DNA of 21,301 bases, from the IMG/VR virus record IMGVR_UViG_3300021960_005611, positions 1 to 21,301 of that record, one strand, 5' to 3'. The first letter of the stretch is position 1. The number at the start of each line of letters is the position of its first letter. Under the pieces are notes generated by a model, which was not told the DNA's origin, made no database searches, and was given only the letters and a program-made list of their open reading frames with translations. The position numbers and the translations under genes were made by a program. This document shows positions 2,042 through 13,975 of the stretch, one piece after another. The stretch comes from a virus.

Positions 2042-2714
2042 GTCGCAAGAACATAAAGATTTCATATTATCAAATTTAGAAGAAACATACTATATAGAAA
2101 ATTTTATATCAAAAGAAGATATAGAAACATTAAGTATGGAATACTATGGTAATATTAATAAAGTTTACAAAAATACAGGACCTATAACCTCTGATATAAA
2201 ACATTATGACTCGCCAACACTAAACAAAATTATAGATAAAATATCTAAATTTTATCCTAATAGTAAAGTAATGTCTGGTATGTTTTTTGAAGTAAAACAA
2301 CCACATATCATACACAATGACGATAAACATAGTTTACCACTAACATATAAAGCCTTTAATATACCCTTAGAGTATGACACAAAAGAAGAACCATATTTGT
2401 GTTTTTTTGACCAAGTATATCTTGACGGACCTAGTAAGTTTTTTAACGGTGAAGAAAATATAGAAACCTTTTACAACACTATTGTATATGATTATGAAAA
2501 TGTTGTAGGCAAATCAAATATACCATTTGATACTATAATGAAAGAAAAGTATCTAACTCATTTAGAAGATAAATGGTTGAAAGGTTTAAGTTTTAACTCC
2601 GCTCACGCATGGCGACCTGGTAATGCAATTGTTTTTGATTGTGTAAGATTGCATTGTGGAAGTAACTTTAAAGGTAAAAAATTAGGGTTGAGTATATTTA
2701 CAGAATATCTTTAG
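2031..2714 (+). CDS. Putative 2OG-Fe(II) oxygenase
   Basis: 227 aa from the ATG at 2031. A TTG at 2016 would add five residues but has no better ribosome site. A cupin-type iron site can be read as 'PHIIHNDDKH' (His95-Asn-Asp97) and 'VRLHCGSNF' (distal His208). These are followed by 'KLGLSIFTEYL', where the Lys may bind 2-oxoglutarate. 'WRPGNAIVFDC' before the distal His is the usual late strand and turn ('pGd.v.fd..') of prolyl-4-hydroxylase/phytanoyl-type enzymes. The substrate is unknown. It overlaps the upstream oxygenase gene by 11 bp and its 3' end overlaps a minus-strand gene by 17 bp. The oxygenase call is motif-based. Confidence 0.65.
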   Translation: MPTRSQEHKDFILSNLEETYYIENFISKEDIETLSMEYYGNINKVYKNTGPITSDIKHYDSPTLNKIIDKISKFYPNSKVMSGMFFEVKQPHIIHNDDKHSLPLTYKAFNIPLEYDTKEEPYLCFFDQVYLDGPSKFFNGEENIETFYNTIVYDYENVVGKSNIPFDTIMKEKYLTHLEDKWLKGLSFNSAHAWRPGNAIVFDCVRLHCGSNFKGKKLGLSIFTEYL

Positions 2715-3312
2715 TGCCATCTAAAGTAAACATTAAAGCTATCCTAGCCTTTTTACTCATAGACACGACACCGTGAGTATAACCTATATTCAAGAAATTG
2801 GCAACTCCGTTTTTAAGATTGTAAGCTTCTATTTTATTATTTCTTTTAAATAGGTTAATAACATTATTGTCACCATAGATAGGAACAATTACTCTTACAC
2901 CATATGATACATCATAATCAACATGCCATGGTATCATTTTACCTGGTGCTAATTTTGTAATTCTAATTCTACTTGCTGGTGATTTACATTGTGTAACAAT
3001 CTCCTCAAAATAACTACCTTTATAATCATCTGTAGGTACATTATATAAATGTTCTTCTCTTCTTTTCAATCTTTCTTTAATACTAGTGGTGTGAGGTAAT
3101 ATCTCACTAGGTGTAGTTAAGTTGATTTGTTCAAAGTTATCATAAACATCTTTAACTAATTCCTCATGATTCATACATAACATAGGATTAGCAGACCTCA
3201 CATCTGTAAACTTTTCAGCCAACTCATCTGTAGCTTTTCTTAACTTATCTAAATCTATATTAAGATTTAATTCTTTTACAGTAGGTAAACTGTGTTTAGA
3301 TAATTTGTCCAT
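2698..3312 (-). CDS. 2OG-Fe(II) oxygenase / Asp-Asn beta-hydroxylase-like
   Basis: 204 aa from the ATG at 3312; a second ATG stands at 3315. AGAGGA at 3319-3324 supports one of these over a TTG at 3327. The core is 'GKMIPWHVDYD', with His130-Val-Asp132. It is followed by 'YGVRVIVPIYGD', the distal 'YTHGVVS' (His180) and 'KKARIALMF' with Arg190. This is the His-x-Asp...His...Arg pattern of small 2OG-Fe(II) hydroxylases. 'RITKLAPGKMIPWHVD' is very like the aspartyl/asparaginyl hydroxylase family ('R.t.l.pG..i..H.D'). It is the last gene of the long minus-strand chain, overlapping the GNAT-like gene by 17 bp and the opposite-strand oxygenase gene by 17 bp. Confidence 0.75.
   Translation of the reverse strand: MDKLSKHSLPTVKELNLNIDLDKLRKATDELAEKFTDVRSANPMLCMNHEELVKDVYDNFEQINLTTPSEILPHTTSIKERLKRREEHLYNVPTDDYKGSYFEEIVTQCKSPASRIRITKLAPGKMIPWHVDYDVSYGVRVIVPIYGDNNVINLFKRNNKIEAYNLKNGVANFLNIGYTHGVVSMSKKARIALMFTLDGTKDIL
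2709..2726. terminator. Weak symmetric hairpin at the convergent junction
   Basis: CTTTAG, six unpaired bases, then CTAAAG: a 6-bp stem centred where a plus-strand and a minus-strand gene meet tail to tail. It lacks a T-run on either side and the stem is mostly A-T pairs. It is at best a weak bidirectional terminator and may be chance. Confidence 0.2.
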
Positions 3313-3877
3313 CATGTTTCCTCTCAATTATATAATCTGATTTAGGTTGCCAATCATAATTCTCTTGTAGTCTTATGCTATAAACATATTGCAACATATC
3401 ACCAGTCTTAAATAAAAAATTCTTCTCTACTTGTAATTTTGTGTACCACTCACCATTTATATGTTCTTTAAATGCCTTATCTGTCATTTGTTTTCTTCTT
3501 TGATAAAGGTTATTTATGGCTTTGTTTTTTATGTCATGTGTAATATATAATATCTTAAATCCTTTATCTCTTGACCACTTGATTTGATGTTCTCCCATAA
3601 TCAAACCACAATGACTAAATCTATATTTCTTTAGTATATGATAACGACATACTCTTACTGCAATATTAGGGTCATTTGTATAATGAGATTTTTCAGCAGC
3701 TGATATTGATATTAATTTATTATCTTTAAAACACATCCATGTTTCTATGTCTTTATTATCGGGGTCATACTTATCATAACCGATACTATTATTACCCTCT
3801 TTAAATGATTGTTGTCTAAACTTTTCAATCAATGGCCAATACTCATTAGGGTTTTCTGAATATCTTTTTACTTCCAT
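3296..3877 (-). CDS. GNAT-like acyltransferase (tentative)
   Basis: 193 aa. The middle reads like an N-acetyltransferase fold: a strand with polar ends ('VRVCRYHILKKYRF', 74-87), then 'HCGLIMGEHQIKWSRDKGFKILYITHD' as a helix and strand, and 'NKAINNLYQRR' (118-128) resembling the family's 'N..a..LYek.GF' motif. The acetyl-CoA loop (Q/R-x-x-G-x-G/A) is not clean. GNAT is therefore a fold-level suggestion and the protein may be an inactive or divergent member. GGAAAG precedes the ATG. The start overlaps the upstream flavin-reductase-like gene by 10 bp. Confidence 0.5.
   Translation of the reverse strand: MEVKRYSENPNEYWPLIEKFRQQSFKEGNNSIGYDKYDPDNKDIETWMCFKDNKLISISAAEKSHYTNDPNIAVRVCRYHILKKYRFSHCGLIMGEHQIKWSRDKGFKILYITHDIKNKAINNLYQRRKQMTDKAFKEHINGEWYTKLQVEKNFLFKTGDMLQYVYSIRLQENYDWQPKSDYIIERKHDGQII
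3319..3324 (-). promoter_or_regulatory. Ribosome binding site deciding the start at 3312/3315
   Basis: AGAGGA on the minus strand. It is three bases from the ATG at 3315 and six from the ATG at 3312. It rules out the TTG at 3327, which lies upstream of it. Confidence 0.6.
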
Positions 3878-4494
3878 TTATCTTTCCAATTATTATATGA
3901 ACTTATCATATCATCTTTATTTTTCCATTGTTTTGATTCATGTTTTTCAATGGTCACCAAATCTTTTTTGAATTCATTAATATATTTACATTCTTCACTT
4001 ATGAAACTCATGTTTTCTCGATACAGATTATCCCAACAATCATTTTTTACAAAGCTCTTTACAACATTACCACCCATTTTTTCTAATAAGTGTTTAGTCA
4101 TGTCAAAGTGTCTATTACCAGCCTTTTTTGATGGTGTAAATGTAATTAGTATTATAGGTTTATGTGAAAATCCGTATGATGTTCCTAGATTATTATTCAT
4201 GTTAGATTTTACAACTAACCAATCTAACGCATTTTTAAAAACTGCTGAATAATGGCCTGTGTGTTCAGGAACAGCAAAAACAAAAACATCTGTGTCATGC
4301 AAATCTTTATCAAATTGATTTATACCATCATCAACTTTACCATCAACATCATTTGTATCAATCAGTTTCATATTATAATCACACATAGATTTACATACAT
4401 GAAATTTAATATGGTCATCCATCATTAGAAGACCTTTACTATTCATACTATCTAAGTTATTACTAAAACTAAATGCTGAAATTTTACAAGACAT
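3868..4494 (-). CDS. NADPH-dependent FMN reductase-like flavoprotein, copy A
   Basis: 208 aa with a flavodoxin-like fold. The strand 'DVFVFAVPEHTGHYSAVFKNALDWL' (69-93) is the diagnostic region of the NADPH-dependent FMN/quinone reductase family, with Pro-Glu-His where most members have Pro-Glu-Tyr. 'KPIILITFTPSKKAGNRH' (112-129) is the next strand and flavin loop. Such enzymes reduce FMN or quinones and can feed electrons to partner enzymes. It is paralogous to the copy at 6146-6784, with shared 'FKNA(L/M)DWLVVK' and an equivalent 'SHKP....TF(T/S)PS'. The ATG at 4494 is preferred; a TTG at 4500 has AGGA at a better distance and cannot be excluded. It overlaps the upstream TauD-like gene. Confidence 0.75.
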   Translation of the reverse strand: MSCKISAFSFSNNLDSMNSKGLLMMDDHIKFHVCKSMCDYNMKLIDTNDVDGKVDDGINQFDKDLHDTDVFVFAVPEHTGHYSAVFKNALDWLVVKSNMNNNLGTSYGFSHKPIILITFTPSKKAGNRHFDMTKHLLEKMGGNVVKSFVKNDCWDNLYRENMSFISEECKYINEFKKDLVTIEKHESKQWKNKDDMISSYNNWKDKWK

Positions 4495-5365
4495 ATTCAA
4501 AATGATTCCTATTTTTATACCAACATGCTGACCTCAATAATTCTCTAGTTTGGTCTTTTGCTATCGTAGGCCGTCTATGAATGGTTGTTAACTGGTCCAT
4601 TAATAAAATATCACCAGGTTTCCATTTATGTTTATAAGTGTACTTGTCAGTTATAAAGTCTTTATATATTTCATTATATAATTCTTTGTGAGAAAAGTTT
4701 AACAAACCGACAAATTCTGTAATTTCATAAGGTTGAAAAAATATACCCTCAATACCTAAAGGATGATTTGGTACTAGTCTATGTTTATCTAATACACCTC
4801 GCCACTCTTTAAATCTTTTATCAACTAAATCAGCTCTACTTTTATTTCTATTTTGTTTTATACCGTTTAAAACTGTATCAGTATATTTTTTATCCCAATC
4901 AGGTTTCCATGGTTGATTTATAGGAATACCACCCGAATGATTTAATTTAGTGTATAAACTTTTATATAACTCTTTAGTTTTTGCACTTAATTTTTTCATA
5001 TAAGGAATACTAGTACATATCCATGTTTCGGTATCATATGTTATTGTTTTACCATACAAACCTATAACTTCTTGAGCATCAGCATGAGGTACCAAATTAC
5101 TGTGCCAATCCAATTCATCATCTGCAAATAGACCTTGATTTTCTCCGTCTATCTTTTTATTTGTTACACGCCAAAAGTATTCACTATGTTTCTTATCGGT
5201 ACACCAAATATCAGGACTTATATGATAACCAAATGCAAGATTCCATTCTGCAAATTCTTCAGGACTTGCACCACTATTTTCAATCACCAAATAACCATGC
5301 TCAGCAACCATTTTATTTGCGTCAATAGGGTCTATTGATTCTAATTTTTTATTTTGTAAAATCAT
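4484..5365 (-). CDS. TauD/TfdA-like 2OG oxygenase, copy A, with His-Ser-Asn iron motif
   Basis: 293 aa, close to the 280-300 of TauD/TfdA dioxygenases. N-terminal 'HGYLVIENSG' (23-32) matches the family's 'G...i.n' opening. 'DELDWHSNLVPH' (83-94) stands where 'WH(S/T)D' is expected and gives His88-Ser-Asn90. 'KPGDILLMDQLTTIHRR' (249-265) is the classic late strand with distal His263, and Arg278 in 'LLRSACWY' fits the 2-oxoglutarate-binding Arg 15 residues later. The Asp-to-Asn change at the iron site is shared with the paralogue at 7372-8181. Activity may be altered or lost. Partner genes are the FMN reductase just downstream and another oxygenase just upstream, with overlaps of 11 and 17 bp. 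The substrate is unknown. Confidence 0.75.
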   Translation of the reverse strand: MILQNKKLESIDPIDANKMVAEHGYLVIENSGASPEEFAEWNLAFGYHISPDIWCTDKKHSEYFWRVTNKKIDGENQGLFADDELDWHSNLVPHADAQEVIGLYGKTITYDTETWICTSIPYMKKLSAKTKELYKSLYTKLNHSGGIPINQPWKPDWDKKYTDTVLNGIKQNRNKSRADLVDKRFKEWRGVLDKHRLVPNHPLGIEGIFFQPYEITEFVGLLNFSHKELYNEIYKDFITDKYTYKHKWKPGDILLMDQLTTIHRRPTIAKDQTRELLRSACWYKNRNHFEYVL

Positions 5366-6164
5366 CTTTTGTTATTACATAATCCTTATATTTTTCTATA
5401 CTTCGTTCTAACAAATCATGCCATTTAGGAATATTTAAAGTACCCATTGGCATTAATTGAATTCTTTTTGTAGGGTGGTAACCTGCGTCCGCTCCATGTT
5501 CATGTACTGTACCGTCATATGCCATAGCATTTGTTTCTGGTGGCAACATAGGATATATTCTTGTTTGAGCATGGTCTTTTGTAAAATATAAATGTTCTTT
5601 TTCCCAATCAGTAACTTTACTCCACCTAACTCTAACTTGACTAGGTTCTTGGTATTTTAAATCTTCTCTTGCCTTATCGTATTCATCATAATGGGGACCA
5701 ACACCGTGTGTATCTCTACCCACAAATGCCAACCACCTTACATTATCATAGGGCATTGAATCAATAAATTTTACTACATCTGGAAACTCATCATGTACAA
5801 AGTCACACCACTCACCTTTAACATCTCCATAATATGCACCATTCGTAAATAACATTAATGCTCTGTAGTCGTGATTAATATATGTACTATGTCTTGAACT
5901 ATTAATATCAGATTTGTCTTTGTCAAACCATACATGTTTTTTATCATTAATACTTGTCCATCTTTTCCACATCAAATCTAAATCTAAATTTACATAAGGT
6001 ACATCTAATGGTGTCCATACAACACCTTTATAACCATTATAATGATTATTATAATTTACCTTAGTATGTTCAGGATTTTCTGGATTTTCTCTGTCAATAT
6101 ATTTTTGTATATCATCACCAGGCAATTTTTCATCTATATTCTTTACTATTCTATATCTTGCCAT
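5349..6164 (-). CDS. Putative 2OG-Fe(II) oxygenase, larger beta-hydroxylase-like form
   Basis: 271 aa. A likely iron site is 'GVGPHYDEYD' (154-163), His158-Tyr-Asp160, with a distal His at 221 or 223 in 'GTVHEHGAD' and Arg234 in 'TKRIQLMPMG'. 'RWLAFVGRDTHG' before the HxD fits the strand that precedes the iron motif in beta-hydroxylase-like proteins. The N-terminal 100 residues are rich in Tyr, Asn and Asp and unrecognised. Functional assignment is by motif geometry only. A GTGGGA sequence near the ATG at 6164 may serve as a weak ribosome site. The gene overlaps its neighbours by 19 and 17 bp, sitting between FMN-reductase copy B and TauD copy A. Confidence 0.6.
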   Translation of the reverse strand: MARYRIVKNIDEKLPGDDIQKYIDRENPENPEHTKVNYNNHYNGYKGVVWTPLDVPYVNLDLDLMWKRWTSINDKKHVWFDKDKSDINSSRHSTYINHDYRALMLFTNGAYYGDVKGEWCDFVHDEFPDVVKFIDSMPYDNVRWLAFVGRDTHGVGPHYDEYDKAREDLKYQEPSQVRVRWSKVTDWEKEHLYFTKDHAQTRIYPMLPPETNAMAYDGTVHEHGADAGYHPTKRIQLMPMGTLNIPKWHDLLERSIEKYKDYVITKDDFTK

Positions 6165-6784
6165 TTTTTATCCCACTCTTCATACAAATGAATCCATTTA
6201 CATATTGTTCTTACATCCGTATGTTCAGTAATTTTGTTTTTCTTTTCATAAGGTTCTGATAATACTTTATTCATATTTTCAGCGTCTTCTTTTACCCATT
6301 CATAGTTGCCTGGAACACATTTTTCCCAACCATGATTAAATACAATATGGCCGTGGTTTACAACTTGAAAATTTTTTAATAAGTCTTTCATCATATTTGC
6401 ATGTCTACCACCATTTTTATTACTAGGTGAAAATGTAACACTAAACATTGGTTTATGACTGATACTATAAGGTATATTTAAATCTTTATCATAGTTTGTT
6501 TTTACAACTAACCAATCCATAGCATTCTTAAATTGTCCACAATATCCACCCATGAATTCAGCAACACAAAAAACATAAGCGTCTGCGTCAATTAATGCCT
6601 TGTCAAACTCTATTACACTATCAGGTACATTACCATCAGCCATGTTACTATCTAATACAGGTATACAAAAATCTCTTAAATTAATAACTTTGTAAAATGG
6701 AATAAATTTATCTAAAAGTTTTAAACCTCTACCTTGCATAGAGTTAGAAGCATTACTAAAATTTACTGCTACAATCTTATTCAT
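6146..6784 (-). CDS. NADPH-dependent FMN reductase-like flavoprotein, copy B
   Basis: 212 aa from the ATG at 6784, chosen over a GTG at 6796 because AGGTGA at 6793-6798 is correctly spaced. The N-terminus 'MNKIVAVNFSNASNSMQGRG' is the phosphate-loop region ('i...s.S.r..S'). 'DAYVFCVAEFMGGYCGQFKNAMDWL' (68-92) is the flavodoxin-like core. It has Ala-Glu-Phe where the family has Pro-Glu-Tyr, so the flavin-side residues differ from copy A. 'HKPMFSVTFSPSNKNGGRH' follows as in copy A. The two copies share an 18-bp identical DNA stretch over DWLVVK (6500-6517 and 4207-4224). Role: presumably reduced-flavin supply or quinone reduction; the partner is unknown. Confidence 0.7.
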   Translation of the reverse strand: MNKIVAVNFSNASNSMQGRGLKLLDKFIPFYKVINLRDFCIPVLDSNMADGNVPDSVIEFDKALIDADAYVFCVAEFMGGYCGQFKNAMDWLVVKTNYDKDLNIPYSISHKPMFSVTFSPSNKNGGRHANMMKDLLKNFQVVNHGHIVFNHGWEKCVPGNYEWVKEDAENMNKVLSEPYEKKNKITEHTDVRTICKWIHLYEEWDKKWQDIE

Positions 6785-7385
6785 ATGATACTTCACCTAC
6801 CAATCTTTTACCACAAAATATTTCTGCCTCTACAATAGTCTTTTCTTTAAAATTATATTGTTGCATATCATTTGTGATTGATTTTAATTTTAATTTTTCT
6901 TCATAATATGTTTGTTCGTGATATGGCTCTTGTATAATCGCATTTTTGCAATCATAAAATTTCATTATGTTTGTGAACATTTTATAATGGTCTTTTTCAT
7001 ACAATAAAACACCACTAAAAATTATACAATCTACTTTGAAGTTAACATCTTTTAATGTTGCCCAATCTCTAACTTCGTATTGATAGTTTGGCCACCGTTT
7101 TTGTGCATATTCAATAGGTTCAGGTGAGGTGTCAAAACCATAATACTGATAATCTTTATAAGACTTTTCATGTAGAAAATCATTTACAGGTCCATGCCTG
7201 CAACCTATATCAACAATACCTTTGTAATTGTTTTTAATGATAATATCGGCTTGTTTTTCAAAAATAGGCCTTGCCTCTAGTGTGTCAAGATAAGACATAT
7301 CTCTTAATGCATATCTTCTTTTCATAGGTATTTCACCGGTCATGGTGCCTATCTTTGGCCAAGGTACTTCTTTACTTGTAAACAT
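6777..7385 (-). CDS. Class I SAM-dependent methyltransferase
   Basis: 202 aa. Motif I is 'GIVDIGCRHGPVNDF' (56-70), the glycine-rich SAM loop. 'YYGFDTSPEPIEYAQKRW' (81-98) carries the acidic residue (Asp85) that binds the ribose, 'YEVRDWATL' (103-111) is the next loop and 'VDCIIFSGVLLY' (118-129) is motif IV. This is a complete small Rossmann methyltransferase of the Methyltransf_11/25 kind. The C-terminal third is shorter than usual and contains 'IQEPYHEQTYYEEKL', possibly substrate-facing. The substrate is unknown; neighbouring oxygenases and glycosyltransferases suggest a small molecule or sugar. The start at 7385 overlaps the TauD-like gene upstream by 14 bp, and the 3' end overlaps the FMN reductase by 8 bp. 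Confidence 0.8.
   Translation of the reverse strand: MFTSKEVPWPKIGTMTGEIPMKRRYALRDMSYLDTLEARPIFEKQADIIIKNNYKGIVDIGCRHGPVNDFLHEKSYKDYQYYGFDTSPEPIEYAQKRWPNYQYEVRDWATLKDVNFKVDCIIFSGVLLYEKDHYKMFTNIMKFYDCKNAIIQEPYHEQTYYEEKLKLKSITNDMQQYNFKEKTIVEAEIFCGKRLVGEVSYE
6793..6798 (-). promoter_or_regulatory. Ribosome binding site deciding the start at 6784
   Basis: AGGTGA on the minus strand, eight bases before the ATG at 6784. A GTG at 6796 overlaps this site and is therefore unlikely as a start. Confidence 0.55.
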
Positions 7386-8181
7386 TGTTAAAATCCGATG
7401 CTATTCGCCATAGTAAACGATTGTTATCCATAACAGGTGTTCTACGGTGTAAACTTGTAAATTGGTCCATGAGAAGTAAATCACCCTCTTTAAATATGTG
7501 GTGATATTGATACTGTGATTTAAATATCTTTGGTTTTAATTTACTGATTAACTCTTCATGGTCAATTTGTTTTTTGCCTTCCCATGCTTTACAAATAAAG
7601 TGGTATGGAAAGTAAAAATATTCTGACATGTTATGTGGGTGTACATCTACCAACTTACGAATACTACCTTTATTTTTACTCATAAATTCTAACTCTGGGT
7701 CACCCTCTTCTAAGTCATATATTGTATTGTTTTTAAATTTTAATCTGATTGTAATAGAACGATAATACTCTTGTTCATCTTTAGACATATCATAAAAAGG
7801 TTTAGAAGTATTACATACACTTAATGTGGTATTAATGTCTTCTTTAACACAATACAATCCAATTAATATCTTATCAATCAAATGTCTTGAATTACCATTT
7901 GAATGCCAACCTAACTCTGTATCACCAAACATACCAATTTTCTTACCGTCAACTTTTTTACCTGTGACTAAAAAGATTTCTGGATGTTCTTTTGGATTCA
8001 TAAACAAATCAGGTGATTCACATTCACCAAATCTTTTCATAAAATAAATATAATCACTTTCTTTTAGATTTTGATTATAGATTACAGCTACACCGTCTTG
8101 GTGTATATCTCTTGCTAATTGTCTTATATGTCCGTCATCAAGACCTCTAATGTCTTGAATTGTCTTATGAGGTTGTATCAT
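7372..8181 (-). CDS. TauD/TfdA-like 2OG oxygenase, copy B, with His-Ser-Asn iron motif
   Basis: 269 aa. 'DGVAVIYNQNL' (29-39) is the family opening. 'DTELGWHSNGNSRH' (87-100) gives His93-Ser-Asn95 where His-x-Asp/Glu is expected. 'KEGDLLLMDQFTSLHRR' (231-247) gives distal His245, and Arg259 in 'RLLWRIASDF' fits the co-substrate arginine. The C-terminal half closely parallels copy A (GD(I/L)LLMDQ.T..HRR), while the middle is diverged. TauD-like enzymes hydroxylate small acidic molecules such as taurine; nothing here shows that substrate. It lies between a PLP enzyme and a methyltransferase, overlapping them by 17 and 14 bp. Confidence 0.75.
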   Translation of the reverse strand: MIQPHKTIQDIRGLDDGHIRQLARDIHQDGVAVIYNQNLKESDYIYFMKRFGECESPDLFMNPKEHPEIFLVTGKKVDGKKIGMFGDTELGWHSNGNSRHLIDKILIGLYCVKEDINTTLSVCNTSKPFYDMSKDEQEYYRSITIRLKFKNNTIYDLEEGDPELEFMSKNKGSIRKLVDVHPHNMSEYFYFPYHFICKAWEGKKQIDHEELISKLKPKIFKSQYQYHHIFKEGDLLLMDQFTSLHRRTPVMDNNRLLWRIASDFNNVYK

Positions 8182-8950
8182 ATTCTTCCTTTATTAAATC
8201 ACATAAACTAATTCTATTTACATCACCCTTTTTAAACTTATCATAATCACTATCTTTTGTTGTAGCTAACCACACACTATCAGACGGTGTAAAGTTTAAA
8301 TCCTGACATATTTTTTCTTGATATTTTTTTAGTCTTGTACTAACATGTGTTGGTAATACTTTTCTAATTATCTCTTCACCTAGTTGCATTGAGTGATAAT
8401 TATAATACTTAGCAGACCCAATTAATCTTTCTAATTGTGAATCTGGTGTCCTTGACCAATAATATCCTATACGATAATTTCTCATACCAAAACATTTACT
8501 TAATGAGAAAAATACCTTTTCGACATTATCAGGCACTTTAATTTTTATATCTGAACTACACGAACCTATGTGTGCAATATCTAATACAACAGGTATATTA
8601 GTAGGTATATCTTTTAAATTGCCATCGGCTGATGATGGATTTGACATATACAACACTTCACCAGTTTCACTTTCAGGTAACCATACATAATCATCTTTAT
8701 GTCTAATTATTTTTCTATTTTCTTGCATGTACCAATAGTTGATACCCTCAGTAACACCGTTAGCTGGATATAAGTATTTAAAATCTGATAAGTCTATGAT
8801 AGGTTTCAACCATTCAGTAATATCTGAGTGAAATGGTTTTACCTCTGTATAATCATCATACTTGAAATTATCACAAACAATTTGAACTTCAATAATAGGA
8901 AATGTTCTAATAGCTAATGATTGTTTAAGTATTTTTTCTTTGTTTGTCAT
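8165..8950 (-). CDS. Compact PLP-dependent aminotransferase-like protein (fold type I)
   Basis: 261 aa, far shorter than the 350-430 usual for the family. The large-domain landmarks are nonetheless present in order: 'YPANGVTEGINYW' (61-73), 'MSNPSSADGNL' with Asn104, 'VVLDIAHIGSCSS' with Asp124 for the pyridine nitrogen, and 'VFFSLSKCFGMRNYRIGYYW' (146-165) with Lys152 as the PLP lysine and Arg160 after it. 'DVNRISLC' (243-250), with Arg246, may be the substrate-carboxylate arginine of the small domain. The small domain and N-terminal arm appear cut down. It could be an aminotransferase, for example for a keto-sugar or amino acid, or another fold-I PLP enzyme. GGAGA lies about nine bases before the ATG. 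It overlaps the desaturase gene by 26 bp. Confidence 0.7.
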   Translation of the reverse strand: MTNKEKILKQSLAIRTFPIIEVQIVCDNFKYDDYTEVKPFHSDITEWLKPIIDLSDFKYLYPANGVTEGINYWYMQENRKIIRHKDDYVWLPESETGEVLYMSNPSSADGNLKDIPTNIPVVLDIAHIGSCSSDIKIKVPDNVEKVFFSLSKCFGMRNYRIGYYWSRTPDSQLERLIGSAKYYNYHSMQLGEEIIRKVLPTHVSTRLKKYQEKICQDLNFTPSDSVWLATTKDSDYDKFKKGDVNRISLCDLIKEEYDTTS

Positions 8951-9575
8951 AAAATAATTTCTCCGCTAACCAACCACCTGTATCAAACTTATGCAATCTA
9001 ATTCGTTTAAAGTTTTCGTGATGATTTTTATGATAGCCTTCACCTGCAATAAACATATTTAACCAAGGTACATTAGCGCCACCTGGTGTTTTATGTCCGA
9101 CTGTATTCAATAGTCCAAATCCTATTTTTGCAAAAACAAATGGTACGGCACAAAAGGCCACCCAAAAATATGGACAAATAATGTAACTAACAACATTTAC
9201 ACCTATTAGTATTTTCAACCAATGTTTATGACAAAATACTAGATTAGGATTTTTATATAAATCTCTAGCGTATTTCATAGGTATTTTCTCGATATTCCAT
9301 GTAGTCAATAATACTTTCCAGAAACCTACATGTTTAGCTGCGTGTGGGTCATTTGGACCGTCAGAGTGTGCATGGTGCATACGGTGACTCGCAATCCACC
9401 CGATTGGTGTTCTAATACATGCTATCATTAACATTGCTAAACCAACTCTTTCAAACCATACTGGTACTTTGAATTGGTTATGACAATAATGTCTATGTAA
9501 TAGTATGCTAGCACCAAAGTGTGAAATAATTTGAGACCACACTATGCCTATTAATATTGAAATTGTTAACCACAT
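8925..9575 (-). CDS. Membrane fatty-acid (acyl) desaturase, short form
   Basis: 216 aa integral membrane di-iron enzyme. All three histidine boxes are visible: 'LHRHYCH' (His27, His32), 'SHRMHHAH' (His64, His67, His68) and 'GEGYHKNHHEN' (His182, His185, His186). A further 'NTVGHKTPGG' (His161) is as in delta-9 desaturases. Hydrophobic stretches at about 3-25, 41-60, 120-135 and 136-156 are likely membrane segments. The arrangement is that of acyl-CoA/acyl-lipid delta-9 desaturases, which put a double bond into fatty chains, but the protein is shorter than the usual 250-350 aa because the termini are trimmed. It would act in the host membrane. A GATAAATA motif precedes its ATG. Confidence 0.88.
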   Translation of the reverse strand: MWLTISILIGIVWSQIISHFGASILLHRHYCHNQFKVPVWFERVGLAMLMIACIRTPIGWIASHRMHHAHSDGPNDPHAAKHVGFWKVLLTTWNIEKIPMKYARDLYKNPNLVFCHKHWLKILIGVNVVSYIICPYFWVAFCAVPFVFAKIGFGLLNTVGHKTPGGANVPWLNMFIAGEGYHKNHHENFKRIRLHKFDTGGWLAEKLFYDKQRKNT

Positions 9576-9579
9576 ATTA

Positions 9580-10137
9580 CTATTTATCTATCCCCACATG
9601 ATGAACTATTTTAGTATTTTCATTTATTGTATTTTTACTATACCATTCAATAGGCATATGAGTTATTTTACCACCGTTCTCTAAGACTGTATCATATACA
9701 AAATTTTGTTCACCGTAATACTGATAATGAACTGTACCATTATTATAATAATGAAGTTGCCATTTTTCTATATCGGAATTGAATTTATCCCACACATACT
9801 GCAAACTACCAGATTTGAATTTATACCAACCACCGTTTATTGGACACTTAGGAGAATGGTCCCACCAGTTTTTGTAGGTAATTAACTCATTGTCTTTAAC
9901 AGGATAGTTAATCATATCTGATATATCACCTACTATTGTCTGGTCTATATCAATTATTATAGTATCTTCATTTGTATTATCAAAGTATTTTAATTTATGC
10001 CAATGTTCTTTTATAGATTCAAAGCTTTTTATATGTTCACACTTTAATTTTACATCATGTTTTTTAAACTCTCTCTGTAAAGTTACAACATTTGAATACG
10101 AATATCTATTGCCATAGAATATACAATGTGCTATCAT
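9580..10137 (-). CDS. Glycosyltransferase-like protein (GT-A, family A)
   Basis: 185 aa. 'DTIIIDIDQTIVGDI' (58-72) holds the Asp63-Ile-Asp65 metal/nucleotide-sugar motif of GT-A glycosyltransferases. 'NGGWYKFKSGSLQYVWDKF' (101-119), 'YGEQNFVYD' (141-149) and 'KIVHHVG' (176-182) follow the order seen in GT8-like enzymes: acceptor loop, then a late metal-binding His. It is clearly paralogous to the gene at 10807-11520 (YKFK.G..QY..DKF..DI..WQ, GEQ.FV). It transfers a sugar to an unknown acceptor. The start overlaps the preceding gene by ATGA. The 3' end is separated by four bases from the desaturase. Confidence 0.65.
   Translation of the reverse strand: MIAHCIFYGNRYSYSNVVTLQREFKKHDVKLKCEHIKSFESIKEHWHKLKYFDNTNEDTIIIDIDQTIVGDISDMINYPVKDNELITYKNWWDHSPKCPINGGWYKFKSGSLQYVWDKFNSDIEKWQLHYYNNGTVHYQYYGEQNFVYDTVLENGGKITHMPIEWYSKNTINENTKIVHHVGIDK
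9581..9588 (-). promoter_or_regulatory. Late-promoter-like GATAAATA before the desaturase
   Basis: GATAAATA on the minus strand, exactly five bases before the ATG at 9575. This is the same motif and spacing as at 735-742 before the nitroreductase-like gene. It overlaps the last codons of the upstream glycosyltransferase gene, so part of the match is constrained by coding sequence. Standard spacing predicts a leaderless transcript. Confidence 0.35.
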
Positions 10138-10820
10138 ATCCAGTTTTCCTTAACAATATCATGTTCTAAACAATCATGTATTTCAGGTTTTTGATGAAAC
10201 AAAGCTACAGAATATTCTTTACGATATTTAAAAGATTCATTGTCATCATTATAATGAGCACCATCTCTATATGAGTATATTATAGGTGGCCTTTTTTTAG
10301 TAGGAAAAGTTTTTGGTTCTGTTTCGTGTGTTAAAAATCTGTCATCACCCTTATATTTAAATATATAATATTCGGGGTCTTTCATAAATTTATTGTATAT
10401 TTCTCTACTATCATTCCAATTCATTACCGAGGAGTTATGTAGAGATGTACCTATATCTGGTCTATCAGAAACAAACTTTGCTTTTCTGGGGTCTTTCCAT
10501 AACGGTAAAATCATATGAAAATTTCCTGTTGTCATAGCTAATTCGTCTATTGCTCCATGTATAATAACATCTAAATCAAAATATAAACATCTACCAGTAT
10601 ATTTAAATACAGATATTTTACTCCAATAACCTGGTAAATCATCTGATTTTATAGAAAAAGGATATAATTCAGGTTTATCTGTGATACACCAGAAATTATG
10701 AGGTTGAGTTAAATGTCTTTCAACAGCTGATTTAAGTTTAAACACATATTCAGGTCCGTATTTTTCCCCTACATTAACACAATAAACATCAACAGGAGTA
10801 TTCCAATTAATTTCCGGCAT
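10134..10820 (-). CDS. Glycosyltransferase-like protein (GT-A, family B)
   Basis: 228 aa. The N-terminal strand 'VDVYCVNVGEKYGPEYVFKLK' and 'HNFWCITDKPE' are the nucleotide-binding opening. 'GRCLYFDLDVIIHGAIDEL' (76-94) carries the Asp82-Leu-Asp84 motif, and 'SLHNSSVMNWND' is the acceptor-side loop found in GT8-like proteins ('N.gvm.f'). 'VALFHQKPE' (205-213) supplies a candidate late His. It groups with the gene at 12156-12758 (W.K...F......CL..D.D.II.G). AAAGG lies about ten bases before the ATG. It overlaps neighbours by 14 and 4 bp. Donor and acceptor are unknown. Confidence 0.7.
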   Translation of the reverse strand: MPEINWNTPVDVYCVNVGEKYGPEYVFKLKSAVERHLTQPHNFWCITDKPELYPFSIKSDDLPGYWSKISVFKYTGRCLYFDLDVIIHGAIDELAMTTGNFHMILPLWKDPRKAKFVSDRPDIGTSLHNSSVMNWNDSREIYNKFMKDPEYYIFKYKGDDRFLTHETEPKTFPTKKRPPIIYSYRDGAHYNDDNESFKYRKEYSVALFHQKPEIHDCLEHDIVKENWI

Positions 10821-11520
10821 AATGAATTACCTTTACATCTGTGTGCCAATCTTCATCTAATAGATATGGATTACCCGACCATTTTTTATAATCATGTTCA
10901 ATGCATGTTTGTATATAAAAGTCATTTTCATGCCACTTTACAATATGTTTTTCAGGAAACATTGAGGTTTTAGTTTTGTTATCTTCTAACATCTTTTGTA
11001 CAAAGTGTTGTTCGCCATTTACAGGTCCACTTGTTGTACCATTTTTAATAAAATATTCTTGCCAATAGTCAATATCTTTTTCAAATTTGTCAGAAATGTA
11101 TTGATGTTCACCATTTTTGAATTTGTATATGCTACCACTCAATGCAAACTTTTTATTTTCTTTATCTTCTCTCCATCTCCACCAAAATCTATGTGTGCCT
11201 CTAAATTCATTATCTTCAATATCATCAAATAAAAAATCACAATTTCTAATTATGACTTGGTCAATATCCATCAATATAATATCTTCTTCTTTAACAATAC
11301 CTTTTTTAAAAAAATCTAACTTATACCATTGTAGTTTTTTATCATCATTTTCTAACTCAATAATGTTTATATCTTCATCTAAAAACTCAGTATCATAATC
11401 TGTATAACAATAAAACTTAAAAGGCTTAGTCGTGTGTTTCTTCAAACTTCTAAAAATATTATTTACATCTTTAGTACCATATTTTGGTCCTTTTTTTAGT
11501 AGTGTACAAATACTAGTCAT
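10807..11520 (-). CDS. Glycosyltransferase-like protein (GT-A, family A)
   Basis: 237 aa from the ATG at 11520; a TTG at 11532 would add four residues without a clear ribosome site. 'KPFKFYCYTDYD' (32-43) is the usual second strand. 'DIILMDIDQVIIRN' (80-93) carries Asp85-Ile-Asp87. 'YKFKNGEHQYISDKF' and 'NGEQHFVQKM' parallel the shorter gene at 9580-10137. The final 'VKVIHYAGN' gives the late His expected in GT8-like enzymes. The extra length relative to its paralogue is mainly at the N-terminus. It overlaps the upstream methyltransferase by 8 bp and the downstream glycosyltransferase by 14 bp. Confidence 0.7.
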   Translation of the reverse strand: MTSICTLLKKGPKYGTKDVNNIFRSLKKHTTKPFKFYCYTDYDTEFLDEDINIIELENDDKKLQWYKLDFFKKGIVKEEDIILMDIDQVIIRNCDFLFDDIEDNEFRGTHRFWWRWREDKENKKFALSGSIYKFKNGEHQYISDKFEKDIDYWQEYFIKNGTTSGPVNGEQHFVQKMLEDNKTKTSMFPEKHIVKWHENDFYIQTCIEHDYKKWSGNPYLLDEDWHTDVKVIHYAGN

Positions 11521-12187
11521 TTCTTTTACCAATCACCATAAATCTTTTGTATTCTTTATTGTTTCTACCTTTTAATTTTAATCTACTATAATAATAAGGT
11601 TTTGTAATATCAGATTGTTTCATCAATTCATAGTAATCTTCAACACAATTTACATGTTCTCTTTCATCTTTCATGTTGTTTGATTGTAAGATATATAATA
11701 CTTGTTTATCATTTGAAAAAGATATTGACGACATAGGAAACATATGTTCGCAAGATGTATTAATACAAATGTTTGTATATCTTTGAGAATAATCTATAAA
11801 ATTAATATCTTCTTTTATATAATTAATATTAACATCATTATAACTTCTACCTAAAAACTTTCTACCTATATCTAAAGCGTCTTCGTCCATGTCAATTAAT
11901 TGTATATCTTCAACACCTTTTATATTGTCAACAATCAAAGGTACTAATACATTGCCATACCACGAACCTAATACGGTAATTTTTCTAGTTGATATGTTAG
12001 GCTTATCTTTTAATACTAAAAGTAGTTGCTCTATCAACCACTTTTTACAAGTAACTTGATTGCCTGAAAAACTATTGATGAAGTCTTTTAATCTATGTGG
12101 ATATTCTCGTAATACAACTCTGTTTAGTGTATCACCAAAAAGACCTAAATCATAATTAAATTTTATTTCTACCTTCGGCTCTTCCAT
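11513..12187 (-). CDS. SAM-dependent methyltransferase-like protein
   Basis: 224 aa from the ATG at 12187; a GTG at 12193 is the alternative. 'RKITVLGSWYGNVLVPLIV' (68-86) reads as motif I with Gly-Ser-Trp-Tyr-Gly replacing the commoner GxGxG. 'DIQLIDMDEDALDIGRKFL' (94-112) has the acidic ribose-binding residue, 'NYIKEDI' follows, and 'ICINTSCEHM' (140-149) occupies the motif IV position. The Asn-Thr-Ser-Cys-Glu-His stretch is unusual for a small-molecule methyltransferase and resembles what I recall of some phage-encoded methyltransferase-like proteins. The substrate is unknown. It overlaps the upstream glycosyltransferase by 32 bp, one of the longest same-strand overlaps here. Confidence 0.65.
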   Translation of the reverse strand: MEEPKVEIKFNYDLGLFGDTLNRVVLREYPHRLKDFINSFSGNQVTCKKWLIEQLLLVLKDKPNISTRKITVLGSWYGNVLVPLIVDNIKGVEDIQLIDMDEDALDIGRKFLGRSYNDVNINYIKEDINFIDYSQRYTNICINTSCEHMFPMSSISFSNDKQVLYILQSNNMKDEREHVNCVEDYYELMKQSDITKPYYYSRLKLKGRNNKEYKRFMVIGKRND

Positions 12188-12758
12188 TTTCACTTAATAT
12201 AATCGCTTTCTTTCTATCAAATTTTTCAAAGTTATGTATAGCATGTTGTACATATTTGTCTGGCCAAAAAGTATACCAATCTTTATGAACATGATAAAAC
12301 CATTTATCTGTGCCTTCAAATAACATTGATAATTTTTCTTTATCTTTTTCAACTGCTTGATAAATGTGGTCGCACTCATCATTATTAAATGCAAACACAC
12401 CACTATTTACATTACAAGATGTATATGTTGACTTATTTTTTTTCATCTTTTCATTATCAAACCAATGTACATGACTTAACATAACTTTACCTTTGACTTT
12501 ATTCTTTTTATAATAGTCAATAAGAATATTTAGGTCACCTTGGATAATGATATCTATATCTAAAAATAAACAATCGCCTAGATTTAACCTCTTATCAAAT
12601 AATGTCATTTTTTTCCAGGTGTGTTTGTAACTCATATCAATAGGAAAAGTTTTTATACCAGGTATTTCTCTATCAGAAAAACAAAAATCAATTGGTAATT
12701 TTTTTAAATCATCTACACTATACTTGTCTCCCCAGAAAGCAGTTACTATAGAGACCAT
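12156..12758 (-). CDS. Glycosyltransferase-like protein (GT-A, family B)
   Basis: 200 aa. 'MVSIVTAFWGDKYS' is a typical opening strand. 'HTWKKMTLF' followed by 'GDCLFLDIDIIIQGDL' (61-76) carries Asp67-Ile-Asp69. 'SCNVNSGVFAF' (114-124) is the Asn-Ser-Gly-Val loop near the sugar in GT8-like enzymes, and 'WPDKYVQHAIHNF' (165-177) may supply the later metal-binding His. This is the most canonical of the four glycosyltransferase-like genes. It follows the radical SAM gene with a 13-bp overlap. Donor sugar and acceptor are not evident. Confidence 0.72.
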   Translation of the reverse strand: MVSIVTAFWGDKYSVDDLKKLPIDFCFSDREIPGIKTFPIDMSYKHTWKKMTLFDKRLNLGDCLFLDIDIIIQGDLNILIDYYKKNKVKGKVMLSHVHWFDNEKMKKNKSTYTSCNVNSGVFAFNNDECDHIYQAVEKDKEKLSMLFEGTDKWFYHVHKDWYTFWPDKYVQHAIHNFEKFDRKKAIILSENGRAEGRNKI

Positions 12759-13975
12759 GGTGTTGCCTTTGCATTAATATACCATTTTTCAAACTCTGGA
12801 TAAACATCTAACAAATTTGTATCTCTAATACTATCAAGATACCTGTATCTATCCATAGCGTCTAAAAATCTAGTATCATTTCTTTCTTTATCGTTTCTTA
12901 AAGTGTGTATATGGTGAGCCATATTATAGAATTTTTTGTTACTATATTTTTTAATATACATTTCAGACACATCTTTAGGAACATTAACTGCTCTAGCCCA
13001 CACAGGAAAAGAAAGATTATTATTTAATTTTGCTTGCATACCAAATGTATCTTTCACAAAGGTGTGAATTTCATCTAAGTATCCAATGTTTAATAATTGA
13101 ACTGTTGTACTGAAAGATAGTTTTACTTTAGGAATTTGACCTATGTTTTTCATAGTTTCAACTTTTTGTTCCCATATAGTTCCGGTTCTTATATATTCAT
13201 CAATCTTGCCAACACCATCAATAGAAAACATTATGGTCACTTTTCTAAAATATTTAAATAAAGCAAACAACTCAAAATTTTCAGTCATGCCATTGGTTAC
13301 AAATCTCAACTCTAAATGTCTTGACATATTGTTGTCAACAATCCATTGTACAAATCCTGCAACTTTAGGATATAATAATGGTTCGCCACCTACAATTTCT
13401 ATTTGATTAGTAGTAGGTAATATTTTCTTTAAGTCATCTCTAAACTTATCCATATCCATTTTTTTAGATTGGTCTATTATAATTGGTCCTTTCCAATCTC
13501 TAGGCAAAGTACCCAATCTTTTTTGTTCAGCTGCTATTTTTGATGATACTAGAGGATTACACATAGTACATTTTAAATTACACAAATTTCCAAATATCTT
13601 AATTTTAAAAGAGTCCATATCAGTAGGTTCCAAGTCTACATTTTTGTCGTCTTTTATTTTTTCTAATGTTCTTTGTTTTAATGTATTTGTTTTATCTAAA
13701 TTTGTTGTGTAGTAATTTTGTAATCTTTTTGAATTGCCTGAGTTTTTTTCATTTGCTATACACTTATAACAAGTGTCTTTAATTAAGTCAGTAGGTTCAC
13801 CAGGTTTCAACATATCATATCGCAATTGTTTCATATGTTTACCATTGAAAAAGTCCATAGGCGATACATCAACAATATTTTCTGATTGTTTTTTAGCAAT
13901 ACAACATGCCTGATAATTACCAGCAACTGTAGTTGAAAATTGTACAAAAGGTAAAGTACAGTAAGGCTTAATCAT
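12746..13975 (-). CDS. Twitch-type radical SAM protein
   Basis: 409 aa. The radical SAM cluster motif 'GNLCNLKCTMCNP' supplies Cys132, Cys136 and Cys139 (CX3CX2C), and 'IEIVGGEPLLYP' (192-203) contains the Gly-Gly-Glu-Pro SAM motif. The N-terminal region has a separate cysteine set: 'YCTLPF' (Cys6), 'ACC' (Cys24, Cys25) and 'CYKC' (Cys69, Cys72). This fits the twitch-domain radical SAM proteins, in which an auxiliary iron-sulphur site precedes the barrel. The reaction is unknown. Relatives with auxiliary clusters often act on peptides or sugars. A good GGAG site lies seven bases before the ATG. It overlaps the PP-loop gene by 8 bp. Confidence 0.85.
   Translation of the reverse strand: MIKPYCTLPFVQFSTTVAGNYQACCIAKKQSENIVDVSPMDFFNGKHMKQLRYDMLKPGEPTDLIKDTCYKCIANEKNSGNSKRLQNYYTTNLDKTNTLKQRTLEKIKDDKNVDLEPTDMDSFKIKIFGNLCNLKCTMCNPLVSSKIAAEQKRLGTLPRDWKGPIIIDQSKKMDMDKFRDDLKKILPTTNQIEIVGGEPLLYPKVAGFVQWIVDNNMSRHLELRFVTNGMTENFELFALFKYFRKVTIMFSIDGVGKIDEYIRTGTIWEQKVETMKNIGQIPKVKLSFSTTVQLLNIGYLDEIHTFVKDTFGMQAKLNNNLSFPVWARAVNVPKDVSEMYIKKYSNKKFYNMAHHIHTLRNDKERNDTRFLDAMDRYRYLDSIRDTNLLDVYPEFEKWYINAKATPWSL

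Follow-up and report, generated by a model that had tools for sequence, protein, structure and literature searches.

Asparagine at the iron site of two viral TauD-like proteins

Can an Fe(II)/2-oxoglutarate (2OG) oxygenase of the TauD type work when the Asp or Glu that completes its iron site is replaced by asparagine? This question is raised by two TauD-like genes in a stretch of viral DNA of 21,301 nucleotides (IMG/VR record IMGVR_UViG_3300021960_005611, positions 1 to 21,301; hereafter the window), in which all features described below lie on the minus strand. TauD-like protein A (293 amino acids; open reading frame (ORF) 4484..5365) and TauD-like protein B (269 amino acids; ORF 7372..8181) both read His-Ser-Asn, an HxN site, where canonical enzymes read HxD or HxE. 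With moderate confidence, A and B are interpreted here from sequence evidence as members of an old TauD-like subclade of working Fe(II)/2OG oxygenases with a 2-His-1-Asn site, which would serve as tailoring enzymes of a biosynthetic cassette and would not be taurine dioxygenases. The genes of the source virus resemble those of marine T4-like myophages, and the closest named genome is that of Pelagibacter phage Mosig EXVC030M, whose copy of B is 83% identical.

Both proteins match the Pfam TauD family PF02668 (A, E 1.8e-19; B, E 1.6e-20), their scores of 71 and 74.5 bits lying far above the curated threshold of 27. An earlier note, made from the sequence alone, had placed a WHSN motif on the iron-ligand position at residues 87-90 of A and 92-95 of B; translation (5096..5107 in A, 7897..7908 in B) and alignments to ScoE, TauD and PDB chains confirmed this placement. 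The motif of A aligns with W98-H99-T100-D101 of TauD and that of B with WHAD of ScoE and D101 of TauD, and when PDB TauD-family chains are aligned through a 50-row profile the Asn again falls on the column of the ligand Asp. The Asn codon is AAT in both genes (Asn90 of A, 5096-5098; Asn95 of B, 7897-7899). The first His ligand, H88 in A and H93 in B, corresponds to TauD H99. As the note had also stated, the distal His ligand (His263 of A, 4577..4579; His245 of B, 7447..7449) and the 2OG-binding Arg (Arg278 of A, 4532..4534; Arg259 of B, 7405..7407) are kept, aligning with TauD H255 and R270, respectively; His93, His245, Arg255 and Arg259 (B numbering) are invariant across the clade to which A and B belong. 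The two proteins possess both histidines of the canonical site and, as third residue, neither Asp or Glu nor the Ala or Gly that gives the halide room in Fe/2OG halogenases.

Confident AlphaFold2 models of A and B (mean predicted local distance difference test scores of 85.4 and 92.0) show the TauD-type double-stranded beta-helix fold. The A model matches TauDs in Foldseek, best that of Pseudomonas putida (3pvj, E 2.1e-16); the B model is closest to SfaA (6l86), ScoE (6l6w) and Rv0097-type oxygenases (E 1.9e-18 to 1e-15), and aligns with E. coli TauD (6edh) by VIA-align with Z 26.4 over 254 residues (root-mean-square deviation 2.7). The two proteins thus share with the TauD/TfdA family (PF02668) its fold, His-ligand positions and 2OG Arg, whereas they differ from E. 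coli TauD in the Asp-to-Asn replacement and in overall sequence (about 14-15% structural-alignment identity). They also carry Glu (Glu84 of A, Glu89 of B), four residues before the first His, where TauD has N95, which contacts the taurine amine; the comparison of the taurine pocket covers this one position. The isonitrile-forming oxygenases ScoE, SfaA and Rv0097/MmaE, although the nearest structural matches of B, retain HxD, and the match to the NCBIfam equivalog of the ScoE group is weak, its 22.8 bits falling far short of the required 400. Isonitrile pathways are expected to include an acyl-AMP ligase and a carrier protein, neither of which was seen among the conserved neighbours of A and B.

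Distribution of the HxN site

Relatives were gathered from viral contigs with motif-free patterns, together with one profile query that partly contained the motif; what the motif-free patterns gathered is therefore not biased towards Asn. The resulting sample held 128 distinct TauD-like ORFs from marine viral contigs and three metagenome-assembled genomes (MAGs), with a readable site in 126, of which 122 are HxN and four HxD. The middle residue of the HxN motif is variable (WHSN 80, WHAN 23, WHTN 10, WHVN 6, WHQN 2, WHCN 1), while the Asn is constant. The four HxD relatives, about 48-52% identical, fall into two lineages within the A subfamily, and the phages of the HxD proteins L088/L090 additionally carry an HxN copy of B. 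On viral contigs L107-L116, up to four TauD-like paralogues stand in tandem, every one of them HxN. One 8.6-kb contig binned as Candidatus Paceibacter (JABAAK010000084.1) encodes a protein 73% identical to B; since this protein clusters with the B proteins of phages, the contig is probably phage DNA within a MAG.

The site also extends to cyanophages. The T4-GC447 protein of Prochlorococcus phages P-HM1 and P-HM2 (phrog_24590) is HxN and falls in the same clade, as a separate cyanophage subfamily of about 350 amino acids, and a motif-free search found WHSN in 47 of 47 relatives of the protein from P-HM2, a phage in culture. In the accessible part of its description, this protein is named only a taurine catabolism dioxygenase and the HxN site is not mentioned (PMC3037559).

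Bacterial relatives were sought in 368 genomes of a single phylum, a sample that includes a Bacteriovoracaceae (Bdellovibrionota) MAG. Only seven of these genomes contain close relatives: five carry nine HxN copies between them, genome G356 has one HxA protein, and there is one fragment without the site. The G356 protein reads WHSA (L250:1444-2301 / L258:1582-2430), and its tandem neighbour is a TauD-like protein with the motif WHRD. Ala occurs in the HxN clade only in this bacterium, and a search for viral relatives of the WHSA protein found none. Among 25 TauD-family proteins sampled from genomes of the same phylum but outside the HxN clade, 20 are HxD, five HxE and none HxN; HxD is likewise the motif of E. 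coli TauD and of five TauDs encoded on plasmids. The possibility that HxN is a generic TauD trait was rejected in this sample on the basis of these proteins.

Phylogeny and selection on the asparagine

In a maximum-likelihood tree of 71 rows, built with the motif column removed, all HxN proteins form one clade (support 99/98) that is sister to the canonical HxD TauDs, and an independent quick tree agrees. The earlier suggestion that HxN proteins form a clade of their own is thus borne out, and a single gain of Asn accounts for the tree. The tree has some long deep branches, whose precise branching order is uncertain. The HxD proteins L088 and L090 lie deep within subfamily A (100/99), a nested position which indicates that the HxD members represent one reversion from Asn to Asp. 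Close homologues with a normal HxD site, which the earlier note had named as potential counter-evidence, therefore do exist, but because they are nested within subfamily A the claim of an HxN clade survives, with this reversion added. The WHSA protein of G356 pairs with a WHSN protein of another bacterial genome, G123, inside the clade (96/88).

Over a total of about 30 substitutions per site in the clade, the median column has undergone 15 amino-acid changes and the Asn column one. Its codons are AAT (38), AAC (19), GAT (1) and GAC (1), and 18 codon changes have occurred, about 17 of them silent against a single change, to Asp, which is one transition away. Changes at the site within the clade are to Asp and once to Ala, with no others. 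The Asn is under strong purifying selection, beyond what chance would produce, in agreement with the note's suggestion that it was selected rather than random. Drift in base composition, which might fix AAT in AT-rich phages, was considered and rejected: the adjacent AspH-like oxygenase of the same phages is HxD in every full-length orthologue examined, and AAT and AAC interchange while Asn stays. Codon composition therefore does not explain the Asn, given that 2OG oxygenases encoded nearby retain their HxD.

Function of the site and competing explanations

If A and B are working 2-His-1-Asn oxygenases, the Asn side chain would occupy the place of the Asp and donate its amide oxygen to the iron; alternatively, within the same interpretation, it may hold a water molecule or an anion at the metal. 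The HxN enzymes would then oxidise, and so tailor, an intermediate of the phage or bacterial biosynthetic cassette, and the one to four paralogues probably each act on different positions or intermediates. Activity is favoured over loss of catalysis because the two His ligands, like the Arg that binds 2OG, have been kept for so long. A precedent is AspH, a 2OG oxygenase that works without a carboxylate (PMC13168262); it belongs to a subfamily other than that of A and B and uses two His with water in place of the carboxylate, having no side-chain ligand at the site. Some observations weigh against this interpretation. Replacement of the ligand Asp is usually fatal in model enzymes: P4H D414 tolerates only Glu, and the TauD D101A variant loses activity, which formate rescues (PMC2767507). 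Furthermore, the Ala member of the clade implies one of two things: either the family can do without a side-chain ligand, or the function of this protein is altered or gone.

A more specific version of the favoured interpretation is tentative and, on our estimate, clearly less probable: the family may constitute a natural 2-His-1-amide class of Fe/2OG enzymes, with Asn bound directly to the iron and the ferryl step redirected, for instance towards ligand transfer, halogenation or desaturation, within one biosynthetic cassette shared by marine phages and Bdellovibrionota-type bacteria. The presence of a halogenase-type WHSA member in the clade makes the non-standard reaction suggested in the note more credible.

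Among the competing explanations, the one that survives best, though improbable, also concerns an altered outcome: a neutral or labile third site would admit chloride or another anion, so that halogenation, ligand transfer or desaturation replaces hydroxylation, as in SyrB2 or BesD. Halogenases of the SyrB2, BesD and WelO5 type (HxA/G) likewise have no carboxylate at this position, none is found there in the 122 plus 47 HxN members, the nested G356 protein carries the very residue of SyrB2-type halogenases, and A has a weak match to the Pfam HalD family (E 0.046). With the exception of that one protein, however, the HxN clade has Asn, a bulky side chain that has been conserved as such and not exchanged for any small residue; the reversion in subfamily A went to Asp, which would block a halide; and AspH, although it has no carboxylate at the site, is not a halogenating enzyme (PMC13168262).

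It is also rather unlikely that the carboxylate has been relocated, with Glu89 of B (Glu84 of A) ligating the iron or balancing its charge instead of Asp. This Glu is present in 69 of 71 clade rows and in all 136 readable HxN rows of a larger set, and the four HxD revertants, and no other rows, have Asp in its place, along with Val for Leu90. Nevertheless, that coupling amounts to one evolutionary event, two bacterial HxN members have Lys or Asp at the position, and half of the sampled canonical HxD enzymes have the same Glu; moreover, the residue aligned with TauD N95, four residues upstream on its strand, is probably beyond reach of the iron. A misaligned motif, or a different acid taking the Asp's place at the iron, was examined and rejected, as the alignment holds no conserved Asp or Glu specific to the clade apart from Glu89; as far as the alignment shows, the earlier note's proposal withstands a possibility that it had itself raised.

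The note had further suggested that catalysis may have been lost in favour of binding, in which case A and B would be pseudoenzymes that retain 2OG or another ligand. The canonical Asp is indeed essential in most model enzymes (PMC2767507), but such an explanation has a poor chance of being correct: across a clade of about 30 substitutions per site, neither of the His nor either C-terminal Arg has varied, whereas loss of catalysis would let the His change, and the kind of change seen at the site also disfavours it. In addition, the site is kept in all of up to four tandem paralogues, and the genes stay with the other enzymes of the cassette. Least plausible of all is post-translational deamidation of Asn to Asp (or isoAsp), restoring a 2-His-1-carboxylate site, since although Gly follows the Asn in 114 of 136 rows and Asn-Gly is the classic fast-deamidation pair, the pairs in subfamily A (Asn-Leu/Val/Met) and in the cyanophage family (Asn-Glu) are slow to deamidate, and Asp, one base change away, has been excluded for about 30 substitutions per site.

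The surrounding gene cassette

Co-occurrence of the genes around A and B was counted in 55 viral loci, each longer than 10 kb, that carry B. The AspH-like 2OG oxygenase (2698..3327; PDB beta-hydroxylase 7v4f, E 4e-6), whose canonical HxD makes it an internal control, is present in 52 of the 55 loci. Beside it, towards A, are a GNAT-like protein (3296..3877; weak match to PF00583, E 0.062; 35/55 loci) and an NADPH-dependent flavin mononucleotide (FMN) reductase-like protein (3868..4500; PF03358, E 6.1e-15; 36/55). Between A and B lie an unannotated protein (5349..6164; 24/55), a second FMN reductase-like protein (6146..6796; PF03358, E 5.3e-17) and an S-adenosylmethionine (SAM) methyltransferase-like protein (6777..7385; PF13649, E 7.4e-8; 54/55). 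The FMN reductase-like gene is thus duplicated (3868-4500 and 6146-6796) beside the TauD-like duplication. The unannotated protein had no match in Pfam and PHROG searches; its conserved columns include H158-x-D160...H223...R234, and it probably represents a further, unrecognised 2OG oxygenase family.

Beyond B are a fold-type-I pyridoxal phosphate (PLP) enzyme-like protein of 261 amino acids with a conserved S-x-S-K (8165..8950; PDB histidinol-phosphate aminotransferases, E 4.4e-5; 49/55 loci) and a fatty-acid-desaturase-like membrane protein (8925..9575; PF00487, E 8.5e-10; 54/55). The PLP enzyme-like protein is unusually short, and histidinol-phosphate aminotransferases are its distant relatives. 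Two bacterial contigs from the Bdellovibrionota phylum, 118 kb and 349 kb long, have the same partners, in varying number, beside their HxN genes. Judged by gene content, the segment 2698-9575 looks like a portable biosynthetic cassette common to marine phages and genomes of that phylum.

Further along the window, a run of short glycosyltransferase-like genes (9580-12758), with one clear Pfam match (GT8), lies between the cassette and a tail-fibre-like region. A twitch-domain radical SAM protein (12746-13975; NF033640, 274 bits) has another radical SAM gene and one resembling PP-loop genes next to it.

Implications

To our knowledge, no feature of this class of enzymes is more constant than the carboxylate, and the few natural losses, in halogenases and AspH, have marked new chemistry or a new mechanism. 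No description of HxN or 2-His-1-Asn Fe/2OG enzymes was found in the open-access literature, a search that most subscription journals fall outside and whose negative outcome therefore carries little weight. The HxN family is long-lived and common to marine phages and some Bdellovibrionota-type bacteria. With hundreds of members, one origin and natural Asn, Asp and Ala variants in a single clade, it offers a ready-made experiment on the role of the third ligand. Viral tauD has been reported as an auxiliary metabolic gene of sulfur and taurine metabolism (PMC9469726, PMC8940887). Viral tauD genes of the HxN clade should not be read as taurine or sulfur genes without testing, and the "taurine dioxygenases" that they are taken to encode probably catalyse a different reaction.

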